Shown: positions 15,505 through 37,015 of the stretch, piece by piece
Layout: each line of letters opens with the position of its first letter
How positions within the stretch are numbered: the stretch's first letter is position 1
Assembly: GCA_024280995.1 (NCBI GenBank)
Contig: JAMXLM010000045.1
Coordinates: 1 to 64,000, forward strand
Length of the DNA stretch: 64,000 nucleotides
Direction: 5' to 3'
Source of the DNA: Candidatus Dormiibacterota bacterium
Lineage (GTDB): Bacteria; Chloroflexota; Dormibacteria; Dormibacterales; Dormibacteraceae
Program-made: the position numbers and the translations under genes
Notes under the pieces: model-generated
Seen by the model: only the letters and a program-made list of their open reading frames with translations
Database searches by the model: none
Told to the model about the DNA's origin: nothing

Positions 15505-15702
15505 CAGAGTGTCGCGCCCCCGAGGCTCCGCGCATCTTCGCGCCCTAGGCGGCCGGGCGCCGCCGGCGCTGAAGCCTGCGTCAAGGGGCCCGGCGCTGCG
15601 TCGTCGCGCACTGGCAGTGCGCTCCTAGCCGCGCCACCCTTTCCTTGGCTCCGGCCGCCGATGGCGCGAATCAACATCGGATCTCGGGGGCGTGACACTC
15701 TG
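15505..15702 (-). repeat. Start-codon-abutting structured repeat, uvrB copy
   Basis: About 198 bp bounded by inverted ends: AGAGTGTCGCGCCCCCGAG at the uvrB side and CTCGGGGGCGTGACACTCT at the far side (18 of 19 complementary). It is about 85% identical by eye to 36813-37011. Minus-strand folding also gives GGCGGCCGG/CCGGCCGCC, CAAGG/CCTTG, GGCGC/GCGCC and a GCGCAC-TGCCA-GTGCGC hairpin. TACAAT (15712-15717, minus strand) would start transcription at about 15705, the outer edge of the closing stem. Either a structured 5' leader of uvrB or a MITE-like insertion. The 40 bases beyond it to moeA hold only this promoter. Confidence 0.82.
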
Positions 15703-15742
15703 GGGTCACTAATTGTAGGGCGCACAAACGTTCGTGAGCGGT

Positions 15743-16957
15743 CTACGGAAGCGAGAGGATCATCGCCTCCACGACGGTGCCTTTGGCGATCCCGACCTCA
15801 CCCGCCGGCACGCGAACCAGGGCGTGGGCTCCCGCCAGAGACATCAGCCGCGACGAGGATTGGGAGCCCGTCGTCTCGGCCACGAGCTCGCCGTCCTCGC
15901 GGTGCAGCGTCACCCTCTGGTACTCGGTGCGCTCCGCCGTCGGCTTTGCCTCGTAGCCGAGGCGGACCGGCAACGTCGGGCGCTGGAGCTGCGCGAAACC
16001 CTGCATCTTGCGGAGCGCAGGCCGGACGAAGACCTCGAAAGTCACGAGCGACGACACCGGAAACCCCGGCAGGCCGAACGCGACCTTGCCCGCTTCGAGC
16101 GTGGCGAACGTGAAAGGCTTCCCGGGCTTGAGCTTCACCCGCCCGACGTGGACCGTGCCGAGGGACTCGAGGAGCGGCTTGACCAGGTCGTGCGTGCCGA
16201 CCGAAACACCGCCCGACGTGACCATCGCGTCGGCGGTCGCCAGCGCGCCGGTGACGAACCGGCGAAGCGGTTCCGCCTCGTCGGGCGCGATCCCGAGCAG
16301 GTCCACATCGGCGCCGGCCTCGCGCAGCGCCGCCAGCAGCGCCCAGCGGTTCGAATCGGGGATCTGCCCCGGGCCGGCGCTCGTCCCCACCTCGACGAGC
16401 TCGTCACCGGTCGACATCAGCGCGATGCGCGGTCGCCGGTGCACGGGCAGCCGCGCGCGACCGGTCGCCGCAGCGATTCCGATCTCCGCGGGACCAAGCT
16501 GTGTACCCGCGCTGAGGATCAGGTCTCCAGGCCGCAGGTCGGACCCGACCTTGTGGAGGTTTGATCCCTCGCGCAGCTGCGCCGGCACCGTGACCTGGTC
16601 GCCGGTGACGGTCACGTCCTCGACCATCACGACGACGTCGGCGCCCTCGGGCACGACGCCTCCCGTGAGGATTCGCACGGCTGTGCCGGCCACAACCCTG
16701 CCCTCGAACGGCCGGCCGGCCGCCGACTCGCCCAGGATCCGCAGCGCTCGCCCCGCATCCTCGGTGCGGACCGCGAAGCCGTCGACCGCGCTGGAGGGAA
16801 ACGGCGGGAGCGGCGCCTCACCGACCAGGTCCTGCGCCAGGACCCGACCGGACGCGTCGGCCAGGGCCACGCGCTCGACGCCCAGGACCGGCGTGAGCTC
16901 GAGGACCAGGGCCGCCGCCTCACCGGCGTCGATCAGCGGGTAGGTGGACGCTCGCAA
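15743..16957 (-). CDS. moeA: Molybdopterin molybdotransferase
   Basis: MoeA inserts molybdenum into adenylylated molybdopterin, the last common step of molybdenum cofactor synthesis. The roughly 404-residue protein shows family motifs: LPPFPSSAVDGFAVR (start of the catalytic domain), ILTGGVVPEGADVVV, STGDELVE, SNRWALLAAL, VTSGGVSVG and KPGKPFTFA, then FGLPGFPVSS and the C-terminal beta-barrel. Start is taken as TTG 16957, 7 bases after the upstream ABC gene's stop; an in-frame start inside that gene is possible. Its product would serve the molybdenum hydroxylase at 38-41.5 kb; moaA is at 49.3 kb. Confidence 0.93.
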   Translation of the reverse strand: MRASTYPLIDAGEAAALVLELTPVLGVERVALADASGRVLAQDLVGEAPLPPFPSSAVDGFAVRTEDAGRALRILGESAAGRPFEGRVVAGTAVRILTGGVVPEGADVVVMVEDVTVTGDQVTVPAQLREGSNLHKVGSDLRPGDLILSAGTQLGPAEIGIAAATGRARLPVHRRPRIALMSTGDELVEVGTSAGPGQIPDSNRWALLAALREAGADVDLLGIAPDEAEPLRRFVTGALATADAMVTSGGVSVGTHDLVKPLLESLGTVHVGRVKLKPGKPFTFATLEAGKVAFGLPGFPVSSLVTFEVFVRPALRKMQGFAQLQRPTLPVRLGYEAKPTAERTEYQRVTLHREDGELVAETTGSQSSSRLMSLAGAHALVRVPAGEVGIAKGTVVEAMILSLP

Positions 16958-16964
16958 CAGGTGC

Positions 16965-19199
16965 TTATTCGTACCGCAGAGCGCGAGCGGGGTCCTGCCT
17001 CGCCCCACGCAGAGCCGGGAGCAGGCCGCTCACCATGCTGAGCACGGCGGCCAGCACCACCGCTATCAGTACGACCGGCACGGAGATCCGGAACACGTCG
17101 AACCCCGTCGACGTGACCGACTGCGTCAGCCGGTCGACGGCCGCATTGCCCAGCCGGCTCAGTCCAACGGCCACGAGGGCGCCGACCAGGCCACCCGCCA
17201 GGCCGATGCCCAAAGCCTCGGCGAGGAACAGCAGCATCACGTCGCGCGACCGGGAGCCCAGCGCCTTGAGGACGCCGATCTCCTTGGTTCGCTCCAGCAC
17301 GGCCGTGTACATGGTGTTGGCGATGCCGAGACATGCCAGGAGCAGGGCCACGATGGCAAGGCCGAGCAAGGCCACCCGCAGCTTGCCGAGGAGGTCCTCG
17401 AAGTTGCGGAACTGGTCGCCGAACGTCTGCGTCTGGAAGCCGAGGTCCTGCACGCGCTGGCGCAATGGCTGAACGTTCAGCCCGGAGTCGGCGAGAAGAG
17501 TGATGCTCGAGTACTCGCCGCCCTTCCATCCGTTGGCGATGGCCAGGTTGTTCCAGTAGGCGCGCATCAGGCCGTACGGCGCGAGCGCGCCGGGTGCACC
17601 GGCGGGCACGTAGTTGTTGGAGACGATGCCCACCACCGTCAGATTGAGGACGATCGGTCGCGCGACCGAGTTGTGGATGAGGGCGGGCACGAGGCTGCCC
17701 GACGTCGGGCTGAACAGCAACCCCTTGCCGAGCGCGCCGGCGGGCGAGGCATAGCCCAGCGCGACAGCCTCGCTGTCGGTGAGCAGGATCTCGGATGACG
17801 AGTCCGAGCTCGGGAGGCGGCCTGCGCTCACCGTGGGGAGAGCGCTCGAGCCTGAAAGCAGCGGGAGGGAGACCAGCGCCCCGGTGGGTGGCGTCGCCGG
17901 CGCGGTCGCACCCGCCGGCGGAGTGGCCGCGGCGTAGGTGCCGTTCATCCCGAGCTGACCCCACGCAGCCTTGACGTGTGGCAGCTGCGCGAGGGTCGAC
18001 AACGTCCCGTCGCTGAAGGCGGGGGTGGCGCTGTCGGACACGGGGTAGACGGCGACCTGATGCACCTGGCTCGTCACCAGCGCGGGCGAGCTCAGCGCGT
18101 CCTGAAGTCCGCCCGCCAGAGCCACGATGAGGCTGAGGGCCGCGATGCCGATGGCGACCCCCGTGGTCGTGAGGATCGTGCGAAGCGGCCGCCGGCCGGC
18201 GCTGCCGAGGCCGAGCTTGAGAGTGTCCTTCCAGTGCATTCTCGGCGCCGGATCGACCGGGTCCTGGCTGCGCACGGTCGGCTTCCCGGAGTCGATCTCG
18301 ATCGCTCGACCGTCGATCATGCGCACCACACGCCGCGCGTGGCGGGCGACCTCGGGGTCGTGAGTGACGAGGACGACCGTGGCGCCGCGTCGGTTCAGGT
18401 CGTCGAGCAGCTTGAGCACCCCTCCTCCCGCGACCGAGTCGAGGCTTCCGGTCGGCTCGTCGGCGAGGATCAGGCCAGGCCGGTTGGCGAGCGCGCGGGC
18501 GACCGCCACCTTCTGCTGCTCCCCGCCGGAAAGACGTCCGGCACGAGTACGTGCGCGATGCGTCAGGCCGACGAGGTCGAGCAGGTGGCGCGCGCGCTTG
18601 CGCCGCTCCTCGATGTCGATGCCCGCGATCGTCAAGGGCAGACCGACGTTGTCCTCGACTGACATCGAGGGAATCAGGTTGAAGGTCTGGAACACGGTGC
18701 TCACGCGCTGCAGGCGGTAGTCGGAGAGGTCACGGTCCGGCAGCTCGCCCAGCGGCAGGCCCGCGCCGTACACGTGGCCGGTCGTCGGACGATCGAGGCC
18801 GCCCATCAGTGAAAGCAGGGTGCTCTTGCCGCAGCCGGATGGGCCGACGATGGCGACGAACTCGCCAGGCCCGATGTCGAGGGTCACGTTCTCGAGGGCC
18901 GTCACGTGATTCTCGTTGCGGCCGCCGAACTCGCGCGAGACGGCGTCCAGTCGAAGGCCGACCGCCTGGCCGACCGCGTCGCGGAACTCGTCCGGCCCTG
19001 GCTCCTGGCTCGGTGGCGTGGAAACGATGGCCACCACCGAAGGTCCGCCGTTGTGGTGGGCATCGCCGTTGTGCACGACCTCGCTCGCGGACGCCTGAAG
19101 GGACGTGGCGACAGCCGCCGCCTCAGCCTCGCGGCGCGCGCGCCGGCGGCGACGTCTGGAGCCCCCCGGCTCGATCGGGTCCGTCACGGCGGTGGCCAC
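16965..19199 (-). CDS. ABC exporter: ATPase fused to FtsX-like permease
   Basis: A 744-residue MacB-type half-transporter. After an Arg-rich cytoplasmic N-terminus (about 90 residues; [10 protein letters not shown]) comes a LolD/MacB-like ATPase (Walker [10 protein letters not shown] about 115-123, signature [15 protein letters not shown], Walker [10 protein letters not shown]). From about residue 330 an FtsX/MacB permease follows: helix 1, a roughly 280-residue extracytoplasmic domain, then three helices with [15 protein letters not shown], the family coupling motif. In MacB the ATPase is also N-terminal, but the basic extension is unusual. Strong ribosome site AAGGAGGG before GTG 19199 and TAGACT (19219-19224, minus). 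Substrate unknown; moeA follows directly. Confidence 0.88.
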
Positions 19200-19251
19200 C
19201 CAGCCCTCCTTTTCTCGCAGTCTAAGCGTTGGCGACCGACTTACTTAACGC

Positions 19252-19584
19252 TCAGCGACCCGGTTTCGCTACCTGTTTCTCCAACCAATCCAGGTAACGG
19301 GACGAGCCCCCGTCGATCGTCAGCTGGAGGACCTCGGGAAGCTCGTACTCGTGGTGGCTCAGGACGTATTCCTGGACCGCCTCGGCCCGTGATTCCAGCG
19401 TCTTGACCACGAGCAGCGCCTCGTGCTCGCGCTGGAGCTGACCTTCCCAGTAGTAGATCGAGTGCACGGTCGGCACGACGGAGCAGCAAGCCGCGAGGTG
19501 CTCGACCACCAGGGCTTCGCCAAGGCGCTCAGCATCGTCGCGGCCCCCTGTCGTGACCAGGATCAGGACCGCCCTCTCCCCCAT
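19252..19584 (-). CDS. cutA: CutA-like divalent-ion tolerance protein
   Basis: A 110-residue small trimeric-barrel protein of the CutA1 family. Recognisable segments: AERLGEALVVEHLAACC, the central YYWEGQLQREHEALLVVKT and YELPEVLQLTIDGGSSRYLDWL near the end. Length is normal. In E. coli the locus affects copper tolerance; the biochemical role in other bacteria is unsettled. It is the last gene of an apparent polA-fpg-PAP2-cutA run on the minus strand; GAGG lies four bases before ATG 19584. Confidence 0.9.
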   Translation of the reverse strand: MGERAVLILVTTGGRDDAERLGEALVVEHLAACCSVVPTVHSIYYWEGQLQREHEALLVVKTLESRAEAVQEYVLSHHEYELPEVLQLTIDGGSSRYLDWLEKQVAKPGR

Positions 19585-19591
19585 CCGTCCT

Positions 19592-20275
19592 CTATTTTCG
19601 GGCAGGTCGCCTCGGACGGTCCAGCCAAACGGTTCCGGCCAGCAGGGCGATCGCCCCGAGGAGCAGGCCGCCGACGACGTCGGACTCCCAGTGGACGTCG
19701 AGATACAACCGGTCGAAGGCCACCAGGACGATCACGGCGATCGCGCCGACGACGGCGGCCAGCCGCACCCACGGCGACGGCGACAGGCGCCTGATCACGA
19801 ACGCGATCAACCCGTAGACGATCACGGCGCGCAGCACGTGGCCGCTGGGAAAGCTGTTGCCGACTCCAGCCTGCGAGGTGAAGGCTTCGGTGAGGCTGGG
19901 ACCGTCCACCTCCGCGACCGTGTGCGGCGGTTGCGGGTGGTAGAGGTTGAACTTGTAGAACAGCTCGAAGCCCTGCGCGGCAATGAAGACGACGAATACG
20001 AACGCGTCACTGCCAAAGCCGCTCCGCCATAGATAGAAGGTCAGGCCGGCCATCAGCACCGACGTCAACTCGATACCCCCGAGCTCGGCTATGACCTGGA
20101 ACAAGCCGTGAAGCTGGGGCCTCCACGCGTCGTGCATCGCGCGCGCGACCTGCAGGTCGAGGTCCTTGAACACGCCCGCCGTGATCGCGATGGTCAGCCC
20201 GACGAACGCGACGCCCAGGACGACGATCGCGACGAGGCGGGTGGTCAGCGCCGGGGATGGCGCTAATGCTGGCAA
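19592..20275 (-). CDS. PAP2-family membrane phosphatase
   Basis: About 227 residues with five or six membrane helices and the lipid-phosphatase motifs: PSGH within NSFPSGHVLRA, and DRLYLDVHWESDV, which supplies the catalytic His and Asp. The first motif, usually KxxxxxxRP, reads KFNLYHPQP with Gln for Arg, so phosphate binding may be altered. Likely substrates are phosphatidate or undecaprenyl diphosphate. The start is uncertain: TTG 20275, overlapping the fpg 3' end by 13 bases, gives a sensible N-terminus, whereas a longer frame would run deep inside fpg. Confidence 0.82.
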   Translation of the reverse strand: MPALAPSPALTTRLVAIVVLGVAFVGLTIAITAGVFKDLDLQVARAMHDAWRPQLHGLFQVIAELGGIELTSVLMAGLTFYLWRSGFGSDAFVFVVFIAAQGFELFYKFNLYHPQPPHTVAEVDGPSLTEAFTSQAGVGNSFPSGHVLRAVIVYGLIAFVIRRLSPSPWVRLAAVVGAIAVIVLVAFDRLYLDVHWESDVVGGLLLGAIALLAGTVWLDRPRRPARK

Positions 20276-21123
20276 TTGCGGCAGAACACTGTGGTGCGCC
20301 CGGCGATGCGCACGGAGCTGAGAGGCCGGCCGCAGTTGTAGCAAGGCTCGCCCGCGCGGCCGTAGACCAGCAGCTGCTCTTGCTGTCCGCCGATCTCGCC
20401 CCACGCGTCGCGATAAGTGTCGACGGAGCTGCCGCGGTTGGCGATCGCGAGCACCAGAGATTCGCGGAGCGCGTCGTGGAGCCGGCGCGCGGATTGTTTG
20501 CTCACGGTGTTTGCCAGTCGGGCCGGTCGCAGGCGCGCGCGGTAGAGCGACTCATCCGCGTAGATGTTGCCCACACCCGCGATCGCCTTCTGATCCAGCA
20601 GCACGGCCTTCAACGGCGCGCGGCGCCGGCGAAGCTCGCGATAGAGTTGCTCCGCCTCGTACTCGGGGTCGATCGGCTCGGGGCCGAGTCGCGGCATCTT
20701 CTTCGCGTGCAGCAGAGCATCTTGCGTGCCGAGGAGCAGGCGCCCGAACCGCCGCGGATCGCGATAGCGCAGCTGTTTGCCGTCGTCCAGGAAAAAGATC
20801 GCGTGCGTGTGCTTCTGCAGCGGCGCAGCAGGATCGACCAGTCTCAGCTGGCCGCTCATACCGAGATGGACCACCAGCAAAGGTCCTCCCCCTTCATGGA
20901 GAGGTGTCGGCGCAGCCGACGGAGGGGCAAAGGCGATCAGGATGTACTTGCCGCGACGGCCAAGCGATTCGATGCGCATGCCGGTGACGGCGTCGACGAA
21001 TTCTTCGGGCTCGGGGTGCCGGACGATCGTCGGAAAGCTGAGCTCGCAGCGCTCGATCGTCCGCCCGACGAGGTGCGGTCGTAAGTCGGCGACGATCGTC
21101 TCGACTTCCGGCAGCTCAGGCAA
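20263..21123 (-). CDS. mutM: Formamidopyrimidine-DNA glycosylase
   Basis: Fpg/MutM excises 8-oxoguanine and ring-opened purines. The 286-residue protein begins MPELPEVETI, giving the catalytic Pro2 and Glu3 after Met removal; the beta-clamp lysine lies in GRRGKYILI (about 56-64), the helix-two-turn-helix in AGVGNIYADESLY and the zinc finger at the C-terminus (CYNCGRPL...CRNC). Everything needed is present and length is normal. It is four bases downstream of polA and overlaps the PAP2 gene, so it is probably transcribed with polA. Confidence 0.95.
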   Translation of the reverse strand: MPELPEVETIVADLRPHLVGRTIERCELSFPTIVRHPEPEEFVDAVTGMRIESLGRRGKYILIAFAPPSAAPTPLHEGGGPLLVVHLGMSGQLRLVDPAAPLQKHTHAIFFLDDGKQLRYRDPRRFGRLLLGTQDALLHAKKMPRLGPEPIDPEYEAEQLYRELRRRRAPLKAVLLDQKAIAGVGNIYADESLYRARLRPARLANTVSKQSARRLHDALRESLVLAIANRGSSVDTYRDAWGEIGGQQEQLLVYGRAGEPCYNCGRPLSSVRIAGRTTVFCRNCQH

Positions 21124-21127
21124 CCGG

Positions 21128-23815
21128 TTACGCGCGCACGACGGCGAGCTTCTTCATGTCCGCCCAGTTCGGACCGACCTTCGTCTCGACCTCGATCCCG
21201 GTCTCGAGCTCATACGCGCCGGTCATGATGCGCGGAACCTTCTCGGCGAACTGATCAAGCTCCCCGCGCGGCACCTCGAACAGCAGCTCGTCGTGCACCT
21301 GAAGCAGCATTCGGCCCTCGATCTGGTCCGCCTCAATCTCGCGCGACAGGCGGACCATCGCGATCTTGATGATGTCCGCGGCGAGCGACTGCATCGGGAA
21401 GTTGATCGCCATGCGCTCGGCCGCGCTGCGCAGCTGGAAGTTCGGCGACCTGAGATCAGGGATCGCGCGGCGCCGGCCGGTGGCGCTCACCACAAACCCT
21501 TCCTCTCGCGCCTTCCGCCTCACTCCGTCGAGGTATTCACGCAGGTGCGCGTACGTGGACCAGTACTGGCCGAGGAATTCGCGAGCGACGTCGCCGGTGA
21601 TGCCGAGCTGCTGCGACAGGCCGTACTCGCCCTGCCCGTAGATCGAGCCGAAGTTCGCGACCTTCGCGAGGCGTCGCTGGTCAGGTGTCACGGTGTCAAA
21701 CGGCACTTTGAAGACGGCCGCCGCCGTCGCGGTGTGGATGTCCTGGCCGGCGGCGAACGCTTCGAGCAGCTTCGGGTCGCCGCTCAGATGCGCGGCGATG
21801 CGCAGCTCGATCTGCGAGTAGTCGGCGGACACCATCACGTGGTCGGGCCGGCCCGCCTTGAACGCTCGCCGGATCCGCTGTCCAAGCTCGGTGCGGATCG
21901 GGATGTTCATGAGGTTCGGGTTCGACGACGACAGGCGGCCCGTGGCGGTGCTCGCCTGGCCGAACGACGTGTGCACGCGCCCACTCAGGGGATCCACCAG
22001 CTGCGGCAGCGCGTCGACGTATGTCGACTTCAACTTGGAAAGCTGCCGGTGCTCGAGGATCAGACCGATGATCGGGTGCTTCTCGCGCAGCGATTCGAGC
22101 GTGTCCGCATCCGTCGAGTAACCGGTCTTCGTCCGCTTGCCCACGGGGAGGCGAAGGTCTTCGAACAGCACTTTGGCCAGCTGCTGCGGCGCGTTGAGGT
22201 TGAACTTCTGACCCGCGACCTCCTCGACCTCGGACTCGATCGCCGTCAGTTGCGCGCCCAGCTCATCCTGCATCTGCTTGAGGTAAGGCACGTCGATGGC
22301 AACGCCCTCTGTCTCCATGTCCGCAAGCACGCCCGCCAGCGGAAGCTCGATCTCGTGGAACAGGTAGTCCACGCCAAGGTTCCGCATCTCCGCCTCCAGT
22401 CGAGGCCGCAGGTTGACGATTGCTTCAGCGCGGCGAGCCGCAAACTCGGCGGCCTCGTGCTCGGCCACCACTGACGGCTTGCGCGCCGCGCGGCCGGTGC
22501 CGAGCAGCTGCTCGGTGCTGACCAGGTCCATGGACAGAAACTCGTGCGAGAGGTCCTCAAGTCGTGGGTCGCGTGAGCCGGCGCCCAGCAGATACGCGGC
22601 GAGGAATGTGCTGAACTCCCACTCACGCTTACCACCGCCGAGAGAGCGGAGCGCCAGCTCGGTTTCCTTGGCGTCGTGTCCGGAGATGGGCCGGCCCGAC
22701 AGCGTGCTCGCCACCGTGTCCATCGCCTCGGGCCGCGCGACGTAAAAAGTGCTGCCGTCCGTCGAGACGCCAAGCCCCAGGATTCGGCAGCCGCGACCGG
22801 TTCCCTCGGTGAAAGCGAAAACTCCGACGTCGCCCGTGGTCTCGAGCAAGCTCGCGGCCTCCGTCGGGTCCTCGACGATGCGCAGACCCGCCGGCTGCGG
22901 CGCGGGCTCGAAAGCGAGGCTCGGCTGCACCGGCACCTGGTCGGGTGGCGGAAAGCGGGTGAGGAGCTGCCGGAACTCGAGGTCGTCGAAGACCCTTCGT
23001 GCCGCGTCGTAGTCGTAGCGCGTCCATCGCGCCTTCTCCAGCTCGAGCTCGACCGGCACGTCGCGGACGATCGTCACCATCCGCTTTCCCAATCGCACCT
23101 TGTCGACGTTCGCCTTCAGTGAGGTCTTGAGTCGCCCTTCAGGCAGCTCGTCGAGATGGTCCAGCAGCCCTTCGACGGAGACGTAGTCCTGGACCAGCCT
23201 GGCGGCCGTCTTGTCCCCCACTCCGGGTACGCCGGGAATGTTGTCGGACGTGTCGCCGCGCAGCGCCTTGAAGTCGATCAGCTGCGGCGGCTCGAAGCCG
23301 TAACGCTGCCGGACCTGGTCCGGCCCGTAGACGAACGTGTCGGTGATGCCACGCCGCGGCACCAGCGCGTCGACCGACTCGCTGACGAGCTGGAGGCAGT
23401 CGAGATCGCCCGAGACGATCGTCACCGAATGGCCGCGCTCCTCCGCGATCCTGGCGAGCGTGCCGATGACGTCGTCGGCCTCGAAGCCCTCGACGCCGTG
23501 GATCGGGATCGAGAACGCTCCCAGCACCCGTCGCACCATCTCGATCTGGGGTCGGAGGTCGTCTGGCATCGCCCGCCGGCCGGCCTTGTACTCCTCGTAC
23601 TCCTGGGAGCGGAACGTTGGTTTGCCGAGGTCGAAGGCGGCGATGGCGAACTCCGGCCGCGAAGCCAGCACGATCGCCAGCATCGAGGTGAAGCCGTAGA
23701 CCGCGTTCGTCACCCTGCCGTCCGACGTGCTCATCGGCGGGAGGGCGAAAAAAGCCCGGTAGATGAGGCTGTGGGCGTCGATCAGAATCACACGCCCGCG
23801 CCGACCCTTCGCCAC
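21128..23815 (-). CDS. polA: DNA polymerase I
   Basis: PolA fills excision gaps and removes primers. Starting from GTG 23815 the protein is 895 residues: 5' nuclease (VILIDAHSLIYRAFF at the N-terminus; TDTFVYGPDQV; GVPGVGDKTA), a central exonuclease-like domain, and a family A polymerase with motif A DYSQIELRIAAHLSGD, O-helix KVANFGSIYGQGEYGL and motif C LLQVHDELLFEVP. In the middle domain the catalytic DxE is replaced by FAFTEG, so 3'-5' proofreading is probably lost, as in Taq. An in-frame extension upstream of 23815 exists but lies in the structured leader and is not conserved family sequence. Confidence 0.95.
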   Translation of the reverse strand: MAKGRRGRVILIDAHSLIYRAFFALPPMSTSDGRVTNAVYGFTSMLAIVLASRPEFAIAAFDLGKPTFRSQEYEEYKAGRRAMPDDLRPQIEMVRRVLGAFSIPIHGVEGFEADDVIGTLARIAEERGHSVTIVSGDLDCLQLVSESVDALVPRRGITDTFVYGPDQVRQRYGFEPPQLIDFKALRGDTSDNIPGVPGVGDKTAARLVQDYVSVEGLLDHLDELPEGRLKTSLKANVDKVRLGKRMVTIVRDVPVELELEKARWTRYDYDAARRVFDDLEFRQLLTRFPPPDQVPVQPSLAFEPAPQPAGLRIVEDPTEAASLLETTGDVGVFAFTEGTGRGCRILGLGVSTDGSTFYVARPEAMDTVASTLSGRPISGHDAKETELALRSLGGGKREWEFSTFLAAYLLGAGSRDPRLEDLSHEFLSMDLVSTEQLLGTGRAARKPSVVAEHEAAEFAARRAEAIVNLRPRLEAEMRNLGVDYLFHEIELPLAGVLADMETEGVAIDVPYLKQMQDELGAQLTAIESEVEEVAGQKFNLNAPQQLAKVLFEDLRLPVGKRTKTGYSTDADTLESLREKHPIIGLILEHRQLSKLKSTYVDALPQLVDPLSGRVHTSFGQASTATGRLSSSNPNLMNIPIRTELGQRIRRAFKAGRPDHVMVSADYSQIELRIAAHLSGDPKLLEAFAAGQDIHTATAAAVFKVPFDTVTPDQRRLAKVANFGSIYGQGEYGLSQQLGITGDVAREFLGQYWSTYAHLREYLDGVRRKAREEGFVVSATGRRRAIPDLRSPNFQLRSAAERMAINFPMQSLAADIIKIAMVRLSREIEADQIEGRMLLQVHDELLFEVPRGELDQFAEKVPRIMTGAYELETGIEVETKVGPNWADMKKLAVVRA

Positions 23816-23817
23816 TA

Positions 23818-23903
23818 GAGTGCCTCGCCCGCGAAGTGCCTTGCACCTTGGCGGCCGGGGGCCTCCGGCGCCAATCTGCGCCGGCTTCGGCGTCGAGTCA
23901 CTC
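23818..23903 (-). repeat. Start-codon-abutting structured repeat, short polA copy
   Basis: Arms 23818-23836 and 23885-23903 pair at 15 of 19 positions. The part nearest polA resembles the uvrB/aroC elements (plus strand CCTTGCA, then GGCGGCCGGG and CTCCGGCGC in the same order), while the distal half is missing. Inner hairpins CCGGCGC/GCGCCGG and GTGC-AAG-GCAC are visible. Minus-strand TAACAT (23908-23913) would place the transcript start at the outer edge of the stem. It ends two bases before GTG 23815. Confidence 0.62.
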
Positions 23904-23987
23904 CCAAATGTTACGTAGCGTCCAAACGACACCCGAGCGTAGGCTCGCGCGTTCAAATAGCAGGGACTTGGAGGACCGAAGGCTAGA

Positions 23988-27376: not shown

Positions 27377-27385
27377 CTTCGACCT

Positions 27386-27976: not shown

Positions 27977-28086
27977 TCGGCGCCTAATTGTGCGGGAGCG
28001 AGTACGCATCCCGATGCAGGCGTTCACTCGTCGGAATCCAAACGTCGCCGAATTCGGTACGGACTTTGGAGGGGGGTTTTTTAAGA

Positions 28087-28479: not shown

Positions 28480-28552
28480 GCCTGGTCAGGCACCCTCTCC
28501 CTCCGGGGCCGGTGGCGTAAGGGGTCTGAGCAGCCCCTAACCTTGCGCCTTG

Positions 28553-29977: not shown

Positions 29978-30168
29978 CTCGGCCCGCCCCGCCCGCGAAG
30001 CCCGCCGGCACCGAGCACGACCCCGACCACGATCATGCCGATCCCGATCCAGAACCATTTCATGTCACCGGTCATGAAGCTGCCTTTGATGTAGCCCAGG
30101 CCCTGGCCGACCCAAACCAGGCCGACCAGGAGAAGCAGCACGCCGATGACGACGAGCCCGTTCTTCAC
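29962..30168 (-). CDS. Small two-helix membrane protein
   Basis: A 68-residue protein: Lys-Asn start, first hydrophobic helix (about 5-28), a short loop KGSFMTGDMKWFW, second helix (about 40-58) and a Gly/Arg-rich tail. The GSFMTGD loop recurs in many small actinobacterial and chloroflexal membrane proteins of unknown function (recalled, not checked). GTG start. It is 27 bases downstream of the aldehyde dehydrogenase gene on the same strand. Confidence 0.65.
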   Translation of the reverse strand: MKNGLVVIGVLLLLVGLVWVGQGLGYIKGSFMTGDMKWFWIGIGMIVVGVVLGAGGLRGRGGPSQSRV

Positions 30169-30195
30169 GACTACCCAATACCGGAAGGGGCTACG

Positions 30196-31626
30196 TCAGA
30201 TTCCGCCGTAGACGACCGACTTCTCCTCCGTGTACTGCAGGTAGGCCTCGACGCCATGCTCCTTGCCGAAGCCCGACTGCTTGGTGCCGCCGAATGGCAG
30301 CTCGTCGTGCGCGATCTGCAGCGCGTTGACCCAGGTGTAGCCCGCCTCCAGCTCCTCGACCCCGCGATGCGCGGCCGCCATGCTGGTCGTCCAGATCGAC
30401 GAGCCAAGTCCGAACGGCGAGTCGTTGGCCAGGCGAAGCCCCTCGTCGAGGTCCTTGATCTTGCGCACGGGAAGCGCCGGGCCGAAAACCTCTTCGGTCC
30501 ACATGCGCGCGCCGTCGGGCACGTCCTCGAGGATCGTCGGCTCGATGAACCAACCGCGCTCGTAATCGCCGCCCTGGGGCCTGCCGCCGCCGAAGACGAC
30601 CCTCGCGCCGCGGTCGATCGCGTCCTTGACCTGCGCCTCCACCTCCGCGCGCTGCGTCTCGGTGTGCATCGGGCCCATGCGGCTGTCCTTGTCCATGCCG
30701 TTGCCGGGCTTGAGCTTGGAGGCACGCGCGACCAGCTTCTCGAGAAGCGCGTCGTAGGCGCCCTCCTGTACGTAGAGGCGCTTGACCGCCAGGCACGCCT
30801 GGCCGCAGTTGAAGAATCGGCCGACCGAGATCGCCCGGGCCGCACCCTCGAGGTCGGCGTCGTCGAGAACGATGCACGGGTCGCTGCCGCCCAGCTCGAG
30901 CGTGACCTTCTTGAGCCCCTCGGCCGCGCGGGCCATCACGTTCTTGCCGGTCGGCGTCGAGCCGGTCAGGGCGATCTTGCGGATCAATGGATGCGACACG
31001 ATCGCCTCTCCAGTCGCCTGCCCGAGCACGACGTTGACGACGCCCTCCGGAAGGCCGCCCTCGATCAGCGCCTCGATGCAGGCGAGGGTCGACAGAGGCG
31101 TCGTGCTGGCCGGCTTGAGGACGACGGTGTTGCCCGCCGCGATCGCCGGCGCGACCTTGTTCGCCGCCAGGGTCAGCGGGAAGTTCCACGGCACGATCGC
31201 GCCGCAGACCCCGATCGGCCTGCGGAGGACCAGCCCGTAGGTCGTGAGGTCCGGCAGCCGAACGTGCTCGCCGTGGATCTTGTCCGCCAGGTCGGCGAAC
31301 CAGGCGATGTTCTCCCCGAAGCGCTGAGCCTCGATGCGCGACTCGAGCAGGGTCTTGCCCTGCTCCTTGGTGAGGATCGGCGCGATGTGCTCGACCTTGG
31401 TGAGCATGTGCTGAGCGGCCTTGTGCAGGATGTCCGCGCGCTTGTTGGCCGGCAGCCGCGACCACGTGGTGAACGCCTTCGCCGCGGCGTGCGCGGCCCT
31501 GTCGACGTCGGCGGCGTCGCCCGCCGGCACCTCGTCGACGACCTCGCCTGTCGCCGGGTTACGGACCTCGTAAGTCTTGCCGGACTCGGCCTTGGTCCGT
31601 TCGCCCTCGATGATCATCGTCGCCAT
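30196..31626 (-). CDS. NAD(P)-dependent aldehyde dehydrogenase
   Basis: A 476-residue ALDH-superfamily enzyme, closest in style to succinate-semialdehyde/lactaldehyde dehydrogenases. Catalytic residues are present: Asn in VPWNFPL (about 147), Lys in VLKPAS, Glu in LELGGSDP (about 246) and Cys in FNCGQACLA (about 280), followed by EEVFGPALPV. It oxidises an aldehyde to an acid; the substrate cannot be inferred. Divergent from an enoyl-CoA hydratase gene with a 53-base gap. Start ATG 31626; an ATG three codons later is equally possible. Confidence 0.92.
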   Translation of the reverse strand: MATMIIEGERTKAESGKTYEVRNPATGEVVDEVPAGDAADVDRAAHAAAKAFTTWSRLPANKRADILHKAAQHMLTKVEHIAPILTKEQGKTLLESRIEAQRFGENIAWFADLADKIHGEHVRLPDLTTYGLVLRRPIGVCGAIVPWNFPLTLAANKVAPAIAAGNTVVLKPASTTPLSTLACIEALIEGGLPEGVVNVVLGQATGEAIVSHPLIRKIALTGSTPTGKNVMARAAEGLKKVTLELGGSDPCIVLDDADLEGAARAISVGRFFNCGQACLAVKRLYVQEGAYDALLEKLVARASKLKPGNGMDKDSRMGPMHTETQRAEVEAQVKDAIDRGARVVFGGGRPQGGDYERGWFIEPTILEDVPDGARMWTEEVFGPALPVRKIKDLDEGLRLANDSPFGLGSSIWTTSMAAAHRGVEELEAGYTWVNALQIAHDELPFGGTKQSGFGKEHGVEAYLQYTEEKSVVYGGI

Positions 31627-31679
31627 GCCATACCCCCGTCGGTTGTTGAATTCGTTGCTTCGAATAAGGTTAGTTGGAA

Positions 31680-32456
31680 ATGTCGGTGAGGCTCGAAAAG
31701 GACGGCGCCGTCGGCGTCATCGTGCTCGACCGTCCGCCTGCCAACGCATACGACTTCGAGTTCCTTCGCTCGCTCGCCGGCGCCATCGACGACGCACGCG
31801 TCGACGACGACGTACGCGCGGTCGTCGTGACCAGCGCGTCGGAGAAGTTCTTCTCCGCCGGAGCGGACTTGAAAGCGTTTGCCGCGGGCTCTGCTCGGCG
31901 GCGCTCGATGACAGCGCTCCTCGGCAACGAGGTCTTTCGCAAGATGGAGGTCACTCCGCTGATCTTCGTCGCGGCGGTCACCGGGCACGCCCTGGGCGGC
32001 GGTCTCGAGCTTGCGCTCGCCTGCGACCTGCGCTTCGCGTCCAAGGGCTCCTACCGCATCGGGCTGACCGAGACCAGCCTCGGTCTCTTCCCCGGCACCG
32101 GCGGCACGCAGCGACTGCCCAGAATCGCGGGGCTTTCGACCGGCATCGATCTGATCGCGCGTGGGGCGACGTTCGGCCCGGAGGAGGCTCATTCCTACCG
32201 GATCGTCGACCGCCTTTACGACGACGCCGAGACGTGCGTTCGCGAGGCGAAAGCCTATGCACGCACGGTTGCGGAAGGCGCGAGCGAGGCGATCGGCCGC
32301 GCCAAGGTCGCCGCACAGATGGGATTCGGCTCACCACTCGACCTGGGGCTCGCGATCGAGCGCGAAGCGATCACGCGCGTGTTCGTGTCCGAAGACGCCG
32401 ACGAAGGCATCAAGGCGTTCGGCGAGAAGAGGAAGCCAGACTACAAAGGCAGGTAG
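31680..32456 (+). CDS. Enoyl-CoA hydratase/isomerase
   Basis: A 258-residue crotonase-fold enzyme. Oxyanion-hole segments SAGADLKAF and GHALGGGLELAL and the catalytic-region Glu in GLTETSLGLFPGTGGTQRLPR (Glu in the second half of the crotonase pair) are in place; the C-terminus ends KRKPDYKGR as is typical. Beta-oxidation-type hydration of an enoyl-CoA is likely. ATG 31680 chosen over an in-frame TTG six bases upstream because the domain starts at once. Similar enzymes are encoded at 47.7 and 48.5 kb. Confidence 0.9.
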   Translation: MSVRLEKDGAVGVIVLDRPPANAYDFEFLRSLAGAIDDARVDDDVRAVVVTSASEKFFSAGADLKAFAAGSARRRSMTALLGNEVFRKMEVTPLIFVAAVTGHALGGGLELALACDLRFASKGSYRIGLTETSLGLFPGTGGTQRLPRIAGLSTGIDLIARGATFGPEEAHSYRIVDRLYDDAETCVREAKAYARTVAEGASEAIGRAKVAAQMGFGSPLDLGLAIEREAITRVFVSEDADEGIKAFGEKRKPDYKGR

Positions 32457-32500
32457 TGGTAATCTCGCGGCTGCGAATTCTCGATAGGAGGTGGCGACCA

Positions 32501-32563
32501 ATGGCCGAAGTTGTGACCGTGAGCTCCCGGCCGTCGGCCGTCTCTTCCGGAGCTTCCTTCTAG
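32501..32563 (+). CDS. Possible 20-residue leader peptide of rsgA
   Basis: A short frame, MAEVVTVSSRPSAVSSGASF, preceded by a near-perfect ribosome site AGGAGGTGG (32486-32494) and ending TAG at 32561-32563. The stop lies four bases before the ACCTCCGG that can pair with the rsgA ribosome site. A ribosome at the end of this frame would cover that segment. Alternatively rsgA is read from GTG 32491 in another frame with 44 extra residues, and the short frame is accidental. Confidence 0.4.
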   Translation: MAEVVTVSSRPSAVSSGASF

Positions 32564-32567
32564 AAGC

Positions 32568-32616
32568 ACCTCCGGCGCGGGCGGACCGATACGCCCACCC
32601 GTTTCTAACCGGAGGT
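32568..32616 (+). promoter_or_regulatory. Ribosome-site/anti-ribosome-site pair upstream of rsgA
   Basis: ACCTCCGG (32568-32575) is perfectly complementary to CCGGAGGT (32609-32616), which contains the GGAGG of rsgA seven bases before its TTG. Pairing would hide the rsgA ribosome site behind a 33-base loop. With the leader frame just upstream, this has the layout of an Erm-type translational attenuator. Inferred. Confidence 0.45.
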
Positions 32617-32622
32617 TTCGCG

Positions 32623-33534
32623 TTGCCATCTCGTGTCATCGCCGATTTCGGCGCCGAGTACCTCGTCGACGTCGACGGGGACATGCGGCGCGCCATGACG
32701 CGCGGTTGTGACCCAACCGTCGGCGACTGGGTCGTCATCGAGGACGACCGGATCGTCGAGGTCCTGCCGCGCCGCACGGTCATCTCACGTCGCGCCGCCG
32801 GCGACGCGAACCGTGAGCAGGTGCTCGCGGCCAATGTCGACGTGGTGTTCGTCGTCGCGGCGGCGACTGATGTCAACCAGCGCCGCCTCGAGCGCTATCT
32901 CACCCTCGCGTGGCAGAGCGGCGCCGCGCCCGTGGTCGTGCTGACCAAGGCTGACCTCGTCGACTCTGTGGACCTCTCGTTCGCGGCCGCCCCGGTCATC
33001 GTGACGAGCAGCGTCACCGCTCAAGGCATAGATGCGCTCGAACAGGAGCTGCTGCCCTCCAGGACCGGTGTCTTCATCGGTCCCTCTGGTGTTGGCAAGT
33101 CGAGCTTGATCAACCGCCTATCCGGTCAGGAGGTGATGCGCACGCGACTCGTCCACGAAGCGTCGGGCGAGGGCCGGCACATGACGAGCCACCGGCAGCT
33201 CATCACCCTGCCCAGCGGCGGCATGATCATCGACACGCCCGGCCTGCGCGAGGCGCAGCTGTGGTTTGGCGAAGATGCCCTCGGCAACGTATTCGAGGAC
33301 ATCGAGGCCCTCGCGCTGCGGTGCAAGTTCAGCGATTGCGCACACTCATCGGAGCCGGGCTGCGCCGTCCGGGCCGGCGTCGAGCCCGACCGCCTGCGCA
33401 GCTATCACAAGTTGAGGCGCGAGCTCAGGGCGATCGCGGCAAAGAGCGACGCTCGCCTCCGCCAGGACGAGCGCCGCAAGTGGAAGAACATCGCGGTCGC
33501 AAACCGCGTCAGGGAGCGCTACTTGCGCCGGTGA
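32623..33534 (+). CDS. rsgA: Ribosome small-subunit GTPase RsgA
   Basis: RsgA (YjeQ) is a circularly permuted GTPase that checks 30S maturation. The roughly 303-residue protein has an OB domain at the N-terminus (RVIADFGAEYLVDVDG), then permuted G motifs: G4 LTKADL (about 108), G1 GPSGVGKSS (about 150), G3 DTPGLRE (about 204), and the C-terminal zinc-binding region CKFSDCAHSSEPGCAV with the expected Cys/His spacing. TTG 32623 is preferred because it gives a normal OB start and has GGAGG seven bases upstream; a 44-residue longer form from GTG 32491 is open. Overlaps a convergent gene by 16 bases. Confidence 0.93.
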   Translation: MPSRVIADFGAEYLVDVDGDMRRAMTRGCDPTVGDWVVIEDDRIVEVLPRRTVISRRAAGDANREQVLAANVDVVFVVAAATDVNQRRLERYLTLAWQSGAAPVVVLTKADLVDSVDLSFAAAPVIVTSSVTAQGIDALEQELLPSRTGVFIGPSGVGKSSLINRLSGQEVMRTRLVHEASGEGRHMTSHRQLITLPSGGMIIDTPGLREAQLWFGEDALGNVFEDIEALALRCKFSDCAHSSEPGCAVRAGVEPDRLRSYHKLRRELRAIAAKSDARLRQDERRKWKNIAVANRVRERYLRR

Positions 33535-33965
33535 ATTCCGTCCCAGAAAGGCACGTGACCGTGCGCGATACGGTCGAGGACCTTGTCGGCCTGAGCCTGC
33601 GTGATCTGCTTGTGGTCGACGAGCGTCTCGAGACGAGGCTTCAGGTTGGCGACGAGCCGGTCCGCGAACTGCTCCTTCGTCATTCCCTTGTCCTTCGCGA
33701 GGTCGGACAGCTTCTGCCCGGCCTTGAGATCCTTGACCAGCGTCTCGGGCTTGATGCCGAGGACGTCCGCCTCCGCCTCGATGACTGCGCGGCGGACGAG
33801 CCGGCGATCGGCGTGGTTGTCGGCCGCGGGCTTGTTCGTGCTCGCGGCGGCCGTCGGCGTCGGGGCCGGCGACGGGCTTGCCGCGCTCACGACTCCGGCG
33901 CCCAGGAGCGCGGCCACGCCGGCGGCGCCGGCGGTCTTGACGACGATTGCTGCTAACGGATGCAT
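33519..33965 (-). CDS. Secreted helical protein, unknown function
   Basis: A 148-residue exported protein. A signal peptide (KTAGAAGVAALLGAGVVSAAS) is followed by a Pro/Ala/Thr-rich linker and two similar helical units: EADVLGIKPETLVKDLKAGQKLSDLAKDKG and KEQFADRLVANLKPRLETLVDHKQITQAQADKVLDRI are abbreviations of their key segments IKPETLVKDL and ITQAQADKVL. This repeat style is common in extracytoplasmic actinobacterial proteins of unknown role. ATG 33965 has GAGGTGAG upstream. Same strand as, and downstream of, the CoA-transferase genes. Confidence 0.7.
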   Translation of the reverse strand: MHPLAAIVVKTAGAAGVAALLGAGVVSAASPSPAPTPTAAASTNKPAADNHADRRLVRRAVIEAEADVLGIKPETLVKDLKAGQKLSDLAKDKGMTKEQFADRLVANLKPRLETLVDHKQITQAQADKVLDRIAHGHVPFWDGIHRRK

Positions 33966-34036
33966 CGTTCTCACCTCAACAATTGGATTTGAGGTAGAGC
34001 TTCGGTCTCGGCTGTCAGCGCCTCGTTGCCGAACGA

Positions 34037-34810
34037 TCAGCTTTGTGTACGCGTCCAGAAACCGTCCGGGTCGAAGCGCTTGATCGCGGCAAGCTCGGCG
34101 TTGCTCGGCGCTGATGTCTCGCTTACATGTTCGGCGAGCCTCAGGTCCCAGCCTGTGTTTGCGCGCACTTCGTCGACCGTGTGCCCCGGGTGCACCGAAT
34201 CGAGATACGCCTCGCCGCCACCGTCGGGGAAGCGAAGCACGGCGAGAGTCGTGATGATCGCGACAGGGCCGCCCCCCGGCAGGCCGTTGCGCTTTCGCCA
34301 AGACGGCGTTCCGTCGCCGTAACCGGGCGATGTGATGAACGAGACCTTCTCGACCAGGCGCCGTCGTTCGTGCGTCATCAGCGTGACCCAGCGCCGGCTC
34401 AGGATCGCGATGTCGGCCCCTCCCCCGCTTCCGGGCAGCTTCACTTCCGGCTTCTTGGGATCGCCGACATATGAGGTGTTGAGGTTGCCGAAACGATCGA
34501 CCTCCGCGCCGCCGATGAATCCGAGATCGACCTCACCCTGCGCCATCAGCGCCATGGCGTTTGACATCCGGGTGGCCCAAAGCGCGCCGGCGACGTTCGG
34601 CGGGTCGCCCATCGTGCCGAGGAAGCCGGACGCCGGCTGATCGCGCATGAGGCCCACCTCGAACAGGCCACGAGCGGTCGGAGCGTGGGAGTTCCGCGCG
34701 ACCGCGTAGGCGAGGATGGGCAGCCGCATGCCGACGAAGACGAGGTCGCCATCGCGGATCTCACGCGACGCGACAGCGACCATCAGCTCCTGTGGCGTGA
34801 AGTCGCTCAT
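34037..34810 (-). CDS. CoA-transferase family, beta subunit (GctB/IpdB-like)
   Basis: A 257-residue subunit of the glutaconate-type CoA-transferase superfamily. SDFTPQELMVAVASREIRDGD, VGMRLPILA, FIGGAEVDRFGNLN and GGGADIA are typical of GctB and the actinobacterial IpdB. IpdAB hydrolyse a ring-opened steroid CoA ester and lack the catalytic Glu of true transferases; which group this belongs to cannot be settled without alignment. ATG 34810 overlaps the alpha-subunit stop (ATGA). Third gene after aroC. Confidence 0.82.
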   Translation of the reverse strand: MSDFTPQELMVAVASREIRDGDLVFVGMRLPILAYAVARNSHAPTARGLFEVGLMRDQPASGFLGTMGDPPNVAGALWATRMSNAMALMAQGEVDLGFIGGAEVDRFGNLNTSYVGDPKKPEVKLPGSGGGADIAILSRRWVTLMTHERRRLVEKVSFITSPGYGDGTPSWRKRNGLPGGGPVAIITTLAVLRFPDGGGEAYLDSVHPGHTVDEVRANTGWDLRLAEHVSETSAPSNAELAAIKRFDPDGFWTRTQS

Positions 34811-35649
34811 TCGCGAATCCGCAGCGCCTCGGTGTCGATCCGAGCGAGGTACGCCGATCGGTCGGGAACATCGAGGACCCACCGCTTCAGCCAGGCCTCG
34901 AACCCTTCGCGGGTTCGCGAAGCCGCGGCGTAGTCACGAAAGAACGCATGGTCGCGGTTGAAGTAGCCCTGGACCGGAGAGGGATGCGCGCCACCAGGCG
35001 CGTGCACCACCGCCACCACCTTGGTCTCAGGGAACAGGATCCGGTTCGGATGCTTGAGGAGCGGAGCGCTTTCCGCCAGCTCTTCGCAGGATATGATCAC
35101 GCGCCCGGCAGCCAGCCCCGCCTCCTCGGTTATGCCGAGCGGCCCCCATGCATGCGCGTGGCCGTGCTCATCGCACCGTTGCACGTGAACGATCGCGACA
35201 TCGGGCCGAACCGCATGCACTCGAACGACGTCCCCATCTCGCTCGAGATGCGGATTCGTGTTCAGGATGTCGCTCCCCAGCAGCGTCCGCGTTGGGATGT
35301 ACGGCGCGTTCCATGCGGCGGCCCACAGCGCGAGCGCGATGGAGAAGTTCGTGTGGTCGTGGATCGCGATCGAGCGCGGGACGCCTTCCTCGGCGGCGCG
35401 GCGGTAGCAGTGGCCGAGACCCTCGGAGACGTTTCCCACCCATGCCGCGGTGACCTGTCGTACGCAGCCGGCGCCGATCAGCTGATCGAACAGCGCGTCG
35501 GAGATCGGCCCCACCAGCTCGAGGTCGCGACGGGACTGGCGGATGAGCTCATGTCCGGCGGCGAACGGTATGAGCGGCTCGAGCGCCGTGCCGAGCGCAA
35601 CGGTCGCGCCGTCGGGCACGAACCGCTCGATGGCGTTCGCCATCGACAT
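34807..35649 (-). CDS. CoA-transferase family, alpha subunit (GctA/IpdA-like)
   Basis: A 280-residue partner of the preceding gene. It starts with DGATVALGTALEPLIPFAAG, followed by ELVGPISDALFDQLIGAGCV, IAIHDHTNFSIALALWAAAW and HVQRCDEHGHAHAWGP, a pattern shared by GctA and IpdA. The two subunits should form a heteromer acting on an acyl-CoA or dicarboxyl-CoA. ATG 35649 lies eight bases after the aroC stop, so all three genes are probably one transcript starting at the structured leader near 37010. Confidence 0.8.
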   Translation of the reverse strand: MSMANAIERFVPDGATVALGTALEPLIPFAAGHELIRQSRRDLELVGPISDALFDQLIGAGCVRQVTAAWVGNVSEGLGHCYRRAAEEGVPRSIAIHDHTNFSIALALWAAAWNAPYIPTRTLLGSDILNTNPHLERDGDVVRVHAVRPDVAIVHVQRCDEHGHAHAWGPLGITEEAGLAAGRVIISCEELAESAPLLKHPNRILFPETKVVAVVHAPGGAHPSPVQGYFNRDHAFFRDYAAASRTREGFEAWLKRWVLDVPDRSAYLARIDTEALRIRE

Positions 35650-35657
35650 CAACTTGT

Positions 35658-36812
35658 CTATTGGGCGATCGACTCCATGTACGAGCGGTAGTTGCGCTCG
35701 AGCTCGGCCATCGAGTCGCCACCGAACTTCTCGAGCATCGCGTCCGCGACGACCAGCGCCACGACCGCCTCGCCGATCACGCCCGCGGCCGGCACCACGC
35801 ACACGTCGCTGCGCTCGTAGTGCGCCTCGGTCTTCTCCTTCGTGTTCAGGTCGATCGAGGGCATCGGCTTCTTCATGGTCGAGATCGGCTTGAGCGCGAC
35901 GCGCAGGTCGATCGGCTCGCCGTTCGTCACTCCCCCGGTCAGGCCTCCCGCGCGATTGGTGAGGTGCTTGAAGCGTCCGCCCTGGTAGTCGATCTCGTCG
36001 TGGTACTCGGACCCAGGGCGCGCGGCGCCCTGGAATCCCGCGCCGAACTCCACGCCTTTGACCGCGTTGATGGAGAGGATCGCCTGGGCGAGCCTGCCGT
36101 CGAGCTTGCGGTCCCAGTGCACGTAGCTGCCGAGCCCGACCGGCACCCCTCGAGCCACCACCCGGAACGTTCCTCCCAGGGTGTCGCCCCGCTCAGCCGC
36201 CTCGTCGATGGCCGCGATCATCCGCGCCGAGGCGTCGGGGTCGGGGCAGCGGACAGGCGAGGCCTCGACGTCCTCGAGCCTCACCGTCTCCGGATCGCAG
36301 CCGTCGAAGCCGATGTCGATCGTGCCGATGGACTGCGTGAACGACATGACCTCGATGCCGAACTGGCCGATGAGCCTGCGTGCCACCCCGCCGGCGGCCA
36401 CTCGAGTCGCCGTCTCACGAGCCGACGACCGCTCCAGAACGTTGCGGATGTCGGTGTGGCCGTACTTGAGCGTCCCCGCGAGGTCGGCGTGCCCGGGCCG
36501 CAGGCGCGTCACGACCTTGGGCTCGAAGCCCTCCTTGGAGGCCGTCATCTGCGCCGTCCAGTTGACGTGGTCCTTGTTCTCGAGCACGAGCGTCACGGGG
36601 CTGCCGATCGTGTACCCGCCGCGGACACCGCTGACGATGCGGGCCACGTCGGTCTCGATCTTCTGCCGGCCGCCCCGGCCATGGCCACCCTGCCGGCGGG
36701 CGAGGTCGCGCCGGAGGTCTTCTTCCGATATCTCCAGACCCGCGGGCAAGCCCTCAATCACGACGGTCAGCTGCGGCCCGTGCGACTCCCCCGAAGTCAA
36801 AAACCTCAACAT
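35658..36812 (-). CDS. aroC: Chorismate synthase
   Basis: AroC converts 5-enolpyruvylshikimate-3-phosphate to chorismate with reduced FMN, the last step of the shikimate pathway. The 384-residue protein begins LRFLTSGESHGPQLTVVIEG with the GESHG signature, then RRQGGHGRGGRQKIE, SGVRGGYTIGSP, RPGHADLAGTLKYG, RSSARETA and the late TNGEPIDLRVALKPISTM. Length is normal. ATG 36812 directly abuts the structured repeat at 36813-37011. Pairing with downstream CoA-transferase subunits is unusual for aroC. Confidence 0.97.
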   Translation of the reverse strand: MLRFLTSGESHGPQLTVVIEGLPAGLEISEEDLRRDLARRQGGHGRGGRQKIETDVARIVSGVRGGYTIGSPVTLVLENKDHVNWTAQMTASKEGFEPKVVTRLRPGHADLAGTLKYGHTDIRNVLERSSARETATRVAAGGVARRLIGQFGIEVMSFTQSIGTIDIGFDGCDPETVRLEDVEASPVRCPDPDASARMIAAIDEAAERGDTLGGTFRVVARGVPVGLGSYVHWDRKLDGRLAQAILSINAVKGVEFGAGFQGAARPGSEYHDEIDYQGGRFKHLTNRAGGLTGGVTNGEPIDLRVALKPISTMKKPMPSIDLNTKEKTEAHYERSDVCVVPAAGVIGEAVVALVVADAMLEKFGGDSMAELERNYRSYMESIAQ

Positions 36813-37011
36813 CAGAGTGTCCCGGCCCCGATGCTCCTTGCATCTTCGCGATCTAGGCGGCCGGGCGCCTCCGGCGCTGAAGCCGGCGTCAAGGGGCCCG
36901 GCGTTGCTTCGTCGCGCACCCCCGGGTGCGCTCCTAGCCACGCCATCCTTTCCTTGGCTCCGGCCGCCGATCTCGCGAATCTGCGTCGGAGCCCGGGGAG
37001 CCGTGACACTC
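36813..37011 (-). repeat. Start-codon-abutting structured repeat, aroC copy
   Basis: About 199 bp, around 85% identical by eye to 15505-15702 and in the same orientation relative to its gene. Inverted ends: CAGAGTGTCCCGG next to the aroC ATG and CCGTGACACTC at the far side. The apical hairpin is GCGCACC-CGGG-GGTGCGC, against GCGCAC-TGCCA-GTGCGC in the uvrB copy: the loop differs but pairing is kept. GGCGGCCGG/CCGGCCGCC is unchanged. Minus-strand TATCAT (37017-37022) predicts a transcript start at about 37010, exactly the element edge. In both copies a frame reading in the gene direction ends ACACTCTGATG, its TGA overlapping the ATG. Confidence 0.82.
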
Positions 37012-37015
37012 AGGC

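Follow-up and report, generated by a model that had tools for sequence, protein, structure and literature searches.

Among described bacterial repeats, the closest counterparts of the element reported here, a folded sequence that ends at the start codons of uvrB and aroC in a 64,000-nt stretch of a Candidatus Dormiibacterota genome (contig JAMXLM010000045.1; the whole stretch is hereafter the window), are the miniature inverted-repeat transposable elements (MITEs) of the IS630/Tc1-mariner type. As portrayed in the relevant passages of PMC2229807 and PMC2170065, these MITEs, of which RUP of Streptococcus pneumoniae is an example, resemble the Dormibacterota element in being short, non-autonomous and intergenic, with terminal inverted repeats, TA-rich flanks and IS630-like ends. 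The Dormibacterota element differs from them in being GC-rich, in its much larger conserved multibranched core, in ends that vary yet pair, in sitting at stop/start junctions and in that no partner gene was found in its source genome.

Correia/NEMIS elements (CREE) of Neisseria, in the parts of PMC2649163, PMC10969869 and PMC2229807 that deal with them, are likewise mobile and folded, often lie 5′ of genes and have ends that pair; their transcripts are acted on by RNase III, which for the Dormibacterota element is a proposal by analogy. The likeness is one of description, with no sequence relation seen, and the passages of PMC2649163 on these elements do not mention contact with start or stop codons, whereas the Dormibacterota element touches both. 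ERIC/IRU of enterobacteria and YPAL of Yersinia, which a section of PMC2229807 presents as imperfect palindromes of 127–168 bp that lie in intergenic regions and for which filled as well as empty sites are known, belong to other lineages and are similarly likened by description, not by sequence. REP/RAYT systems, according to the account of them in PMC3733652, also consist of palindromic intergenic repeats, but REPs measure only 20–40 bp, and a Y1 transposase exceeded the cut-off in 0 of 37 genomes of our set (5 of 14 control genomes were positive). A literature search, including Dormibacter combined with MITE or with insertion sequence and transposase, returned no description of the element.

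On the reading we favour, the element defines a new Dormibacterota family of IS630-related MITEs whose covarying core is more elaborate, and whose placement is more exact, than is usual. Its copies are dispersed, with older and recent insertions into gene junctions and a conserved, covarying core, and its ends appear, from their sequences, to be related to those of an IS630-family element of one relative. We think it fairly probable that the family consists of non-autonomous mobile elements of ~185–260 nt that probably depend for their movement on an IS630/Tc1-mariner-type transposase acting in trans.

A dispersed family of folded elements

The leaders of uvrB (copy A) and aroC (copy B; Table 1) have the same orientation relative to the downstream gene and are 86% identical by BLAST (query bases 2–200 of 200). 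An initial annotation of this DNA had put the identity at about 85% and had named both genes; its coordinates prove correct to within a few nucleotides, and Pfam identifies UvrB and chorismate synthase. It had also proposed a long stem next to the start codon, and this is borne out: in both copies 2 nt separate the end of the stem from the ATG (CACTC-TG-ATG), and the folding energies of the RNAs (−136.7 kcal/mol, z −9.4, for copy A; −125.9 kcal/mol, z −8.2, for copy B) were equalled by 0 of 200 shuffles in each case. The + strand of copy A folds nearly as strongly (z −8.5), as a near-palindrome should. An apical loop that varies while its pairing is retained, another feature of the annotation, is visible in the alignment of the two copies and holds over 22 copies. 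The suggestion that −10-like hexamers are placed for transcription to start at the edge of the element fits copy B, with TATCAT 5 nt from the stem, and fails in detail for copy A, in which TACAAT lies 11 nt from the stem and the predicted start therefore falls a few nucleotides ahead of the element. Relatives whose uvrB lacks the element have TAGAAT at the position matching TACAAT, and in empty congeners TATCAT lies ~7 nt before the start codon of aroC. Rfam gave no match to the region 15400–15800 around copy A up to E 10, and for the window at gathering scores it reported 5S rRNA only.

The source genome (G000; 3,021,951 bases, 46 contigs, 94% complete; other G numbers denote relatives and L numbers loci) contains 42 BLAST matches to the leader. 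We extracted 39 copies from 41 loci and aligned 34; a covariance model, R1, was built from 22 of these, leaving aside nine with long inserts and three variants. At E ≤ 0.1, R1 returned 73 matches in this genome, from which 18 antisense shadows of sense matches were removed; 37 of the 55 remaining sense matches score above 85 bits and have neighbouring genes called on both sides. Length variants of 239–263 nt (for example L037, 1573–1805) carry ~40 extra nt that lengthen a small hairpin, and others carry ~25 extra nt in the apical hairpin; L227 and L233, at a site shared by close relatives, differ by such a hairpin insert.

An exact 25-base core pattern, searched for exact matches only in a genome contig collection that may lack close records of the source genome, occurs in 51 stretches from 19 metagenome-assembled genomes (MAGs), all titled Chloroflexi bacterium or Dormibacterota/Dormibacteraeota. 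R1 at E ≤ 0.001 matched 37 of 61 relatives: 32 of the 37 that belong to the family of the source genome, and 5 of the 24 from the remaining families of its class. The number of matches per relative runs from 0 to at least 40. At E ≤ 1e-8, with no more than 9 matches scored in each genome, R1 matched 13 of 251 genomes of the phylum, one of which, G127, comes from another family. Some MAG contigs, shared or of draft quality, may be chimeras. Neither a pattern scan of viral contigs nor a BLAST search of plasmids found the element.

The core of the fold covaries, as the initial annotation had proposed to examine. Across the 22 modelled copies, 31 of 62 pairs are changed on both sides, against a shuffle mean of 12.5 (0 of 500 shuffles reach 31, a fraction that is not a probability since the copies are related) and 11–15 in slid controls. 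The 5′ arm of the outer stem takes 82 distinct forms in 106 copies, and 84.9% of the cells of this stem are paired; exchanging entire 3′ arms at random between copies lowers the figure to 67.6% (maximum 69.7%). In sequence these outer arms are the least conserved part of the element, with a mean column conservation of 0.73 where the core reaches 0.93, but they stay complementary.

Empty sites, ends and a candidate transposase

At all 12 source-genome sites tested, the joined flanks without the element match congeners as a single contiguous stretch, and the element is present in none of the 33 empty-site sequences aligned, which were picked from such contiguous matches. Several of the original gaps measure 0–12 nt and run from stop to start codon or from a −10-like box to the start codon. 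A copy stands beside uvrB in 1 of 30 fetched loci and beside aroC in 2 of 30 (G000 and G009), with <200 nt upstream in three of all the loci fetched; another aroC copy occurs in MAG CF_78 (L065). The element is therefore not a dedicated regulator of these genes.

Within the close pair G009 and G002, nine filled/empty comparisons could be made at eight sites, the flank-pair search having used 11 of 13 prepared pairs (1599 of 1898 bases). The cleanest polymorphism is L229 (filled) against L247 (empty), in which the flanks are identical and GCAGCATCAGACTCGG becomes GCAGCATCAG[element]AGACTCGG. This insertion divides a TGATG stop/start overlap, so that the upstream gene now terminates at a TAA that the junction creates, and the start codon is preserved. 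A MITE-like element had been one of the two readings in the initial annotation, and the many copies, the empty sites in congeners and this insertion polymorphism speak for it. The empty form, L247, lies on another contig of the same MAG: filled and empty forms of one site with identical flanks occur in G009 (C250:2871-3021 against C309:1620-1821), which therefore reflects a strain mixture or a duplication.

Five relatives from several other genera (G020, G032, G040, G046 and G127) have elements with ends CTAGTGTCC..GGACACTAG, some of them reading CTAGTGTCG with a matching inverted end. In G046, locus L320 (908–2070) holds an insertion sequence whose ends, CTAGTGTCCTGAGTT and CTAGTGTCCTGAATT, surround a 362-amino-acid transposase of the IS630 family (NCBIfam 272 bits, cut-off 100), and four elements of the same genome (L245, L246, L297 and L298) have their first 9–11 bases in common with it. 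The stop codon of this transposase, TAG, falls within the terminal CTAG repeat of the L320 element itself. TA flanks the family well above the 6.4% background, at 39 (left) and 56 (right) of 91 copies outside the source genome and at 11 and 20 of 37 within it; TA lies near both ends in 26 of the 91 and 6 of the 37. For ISY100, a relative of IS630, the portion of PMC2170065 on target sites lists 39 insertions, 34 of them at TA with TA duplicated, 2 with AA/TT and 3 with a one-sided TA.

Placement at gene edges and competing explanations

We examined placement in 127 distinct copies flanked left and right by a called gene, the gene calls coming from our own codon-score script, which was checked only on uvrB, aroC and their neighbours. 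The annotation had placed copies at gene starts; more broadly they sit at gene edges, with an end ≤3 nt from one in 100 of the 127 copies and both ends ≤6 nt in 46. A start codon lies within 8 nt in 83 copies and a stop codon in 77. Nulls drawn from the window alone (64 kb) gave, for either end ≤3 nt and both ends ≤6 nt respectively, 7% and 1% at random intergenic points and 24% and 3% at TA sites outside genes. IS630 prefers CTAG targets, and these gave 29% and 6% (17 sites only). By strand, 62 copies are antisense to both neighbours, 27 are sense to both, 35 lie in divergent and 3 in convergent gaps; since 20% of these TA sites fall in convergent gaps and 17% of junctions are convergent, such gaps are clearly under-represented. 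Of 33 sense copies that have a start codon no more than 8 nt away, 21 have it 2–3 nt from the stem. The touched genes share no common pathway and include the rpmI-rplT and atpD-atpC operons, so essential operons tolerate the element.

Such a distribution could arise as follows. An IS630-type transposase would insert the element; copies landing in genes would be lost, and those at stop/start junctions or between a −10 box and a start codon would persist, presumably since one end of the element provides an in-frame stop and the start codon at its other end is left unharmed. In sense position it would become the entire 5′ leader, or within operons the entire intercistronic spacer, and its paired ends would place the start codon beside the 5′ end of the mRNA or the preceding stop codon. 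Leaderless genes with TANNNT ~12 bp before the start are described, in the pertinent part of PMC3160421, in bacteria including Chloroflexi, and the empty uvrB and aroC sites resemble this arrangement. A 200-nt leader should disturb a leaderless-type start. The long end-to-end duplex may be a substrate for RNase III, cleavage by which is reported for Correia elements in the excerpts of PMC10969869 and PMC2649163 concerned, and by that analogy a cut in the outer stem would remove the leader and restore a short one.

Several observations weigh against transposition by an IS630-type enzyme. TA targeting together with loss from genes falls short of the edge placement observed, cut-and-paste of duplex DNA explains neither the covariation nor the excess of G.T pairs described below, and the slow divergence of some shared copies is unexpected for a neutral MITE. 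The commonest ends in the source genome are GAGTGTC, not TAGTGTC. Matching ends on both sides were found at only 1 of 10 DDE_3 loci checked (L320), and there was no DDE_3 match in G000, G009 or G002, so that no partner is visible where the polymorphic insertions are; the mover has therefore disappeared, is absent only from the draft assemblies or is a different enzyme. A target duplication is readable at only two of the eight filled/empty sites (AG and AA, neither of them TA), the AG case being also readable as no duplication and the AA case involving one differing base; the remaining six yielded no readable duplication.

Over 106 distinct copies, paired cells of the element's sense strand include 271 G.T and 94 A.C, and the ratio is 114:36 in 43 copies antisense to their hosts and 57:24 in 21 sense copies. 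Selection on host mRNA predicts the opposite bias in antisense copies, which is not seen; the fold was therefore kept for the element's own strand or preset in source elements before insertion. What has preserved the folded core seems to be a property that belongs to the element's own strand and not to host mRNA. This speaks against a domesticated structured leader, in which the folded RNA would have gained a host function (RNase III processing, insulation or cistron coupling, for instance) that preserves fold and sequence, since the strand kept is not that of the host mRNA. Placement at gene edges above the TA null and the avoidance of convergent gaps favour such a leader, as do three copies shared by G009 and G002 that differ at only 0/200, 1/241 and 3/202 aligned sites while their 400-nt flanks differ by 2–10%. 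This slow divergence looks like constraint, or recent local exchange may lie behind it; one of the three pairs also carries a 39-nt indel. On the other side, most sites are not common to congeners, and only 4 of 15 shared-site pairs have an element that resembles its counterpart more closely than either flank does, the element being otherwise as diverged or more so; several may be independent insertions, as the sequence relationships in 3 of 6 shared-site groups, whose copies are not each other's closest relatives, also suggest. Repeated hits at some junctions were considered, but we claim no hot spot. We regard domestication as an unlikely explanation, if one to be taken seriously. A dedicated, riboswitch-like RNA of uvrB, aroC and other genes would account for the multibranched covarying fold and for the usual distance of 2–3 nt from stem to start codon. 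The annotation had held that a lack of covariation, or copies mostly away from gene starts, would speak against such an RNA; we found both covariation and placement at gene edges to be strong. Its cis-regulatory RNA common to a repair and a shikimate gene nevertheless finds no support, given the rarity of the element at orthologues, the carrier genes without a common pathway, the half of copies that are antisense and the absence of Rfam matches to copy A; we rejected a dedicated uvrB/aroC regulator and consider the wider version very improbable.

Movement as folded single-stranded DNA, in the manner of REP/RAYT or IS200/IS605, or through RNA as a retroelement, would explain why the fold is retained in one strand and why ends that differ in sequence still pair. 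Against it stand the absence of Y1 transposases noted above and the distribution of reverse transcriptases, which occur in 8 of 37 genomes (including G003 and G011) but not in G000, G002, G009, G013 or G014. IS110 transposases were found in 6 of 23 genomes, not in G000 but in G009 and G014, so that IS110 may have a role in those two; overall we judge this class of mover distinctly improbable. Template switching in quasi-palindromes could match the arms without selection on the fold, and the near-palindromic form, with arms paired in nearly all copies, is what it would produce. Internal mismatches persist, however, with a tandem GA/GA mismatch between two stems in 48 of the 106 copies and several other combinations in the rest, and the excess of G.T over A.C is not predicted, which makes this account improbable. 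We tentatively raise a further idea, to which we give rather little credence: a mobile noncoding RNA whose own strand must fold for it to propagate, whose terminal stems are recognized by pairing and not by sequence, and which inserts at stop/start junctions to become a complete, exchangeable mRNA leader. If this is true, the Dormibacterota would harbour an RNA-structured mobile element of a kind that is new.

Should the IS630-related MITE reading hold, a little-studied soil phylum has a MITE-like family that, time and again, makes up all of the leader of a core gene or all of the spacer between two cistrons, and these genes, ribosomal-protein and ATP-synthase operons among them, carry it unbroken. 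The many natural insertions with empty controls would show how bacteria tolerate a 200-nt structured leader in place of a nearly leaderless start. The family also poses the question of how terminal repeats change sequence yet go on pairing, and why the strand in which the fold is kept does not depend on the direction of the host gene.

Positions in the window and minor observations

Besides copies A and B, the window holds two weaker members of the family (Table 1).

Table 1. Element copies, their host genes and promoter-like motifs in the window
Feature	Position	Strand	Evidence
Copy A, full-length, leader of uvrB	15504..15703	-	R1 191 bits; 86% identity to copy B
Copy B, full-length, leader of aroC	36812..37014	-	R1 199.7 bits
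uvrB, start codon touched by copy A	13423..15504	-	Pfam UvrB, UvrB_inter
aroC, chorismate synthase gene whose start codon copy B touches	35658..36812	-	Pfam Chorismate_synt 399.6 bits
TACAAT, −10-like hexamer upstream of copy A	15712..15717	-	by eye
TATCAT, −10-like hexamer upstream of copy B	37017..37022	-	by eye
Diverged member of the 185-nt subfamily, antisense to the minus-strand gene on either side	597..781	+	R1 49.7 bits, E 3e-9 in window; subfamily alignment
Short member, ~90 nt, ends beside GTG start codon	23815..23906	-	R1 33.9 bits, E 8e-6 in window; weaker than others

Three near-identical members of 185 nt occur in G127 (L286, L287 and L288), two of them with perfect CTAGTGTCGCG ends; this set is perhaps the youngest of the family. 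Two weak matches in the source genome, C13:26503-26687 (49.9 bits) and C15:57219-57403 (48.8 bits), follow similar C-terminal coding sequences, the ends of which their 5′ arms overlap, and may represent a duplicated gene end and not members of the family.

Just upstream of uvrB, a CGAACGTTTGTGCG-like box lies at 15721–15734 on the − strand, with the element downstream of it. We take this box to be a candidate operator of the LexA/SOS type, which it resembles; it is kept in most congeners at the same place ahead of the −10-like hexamer.

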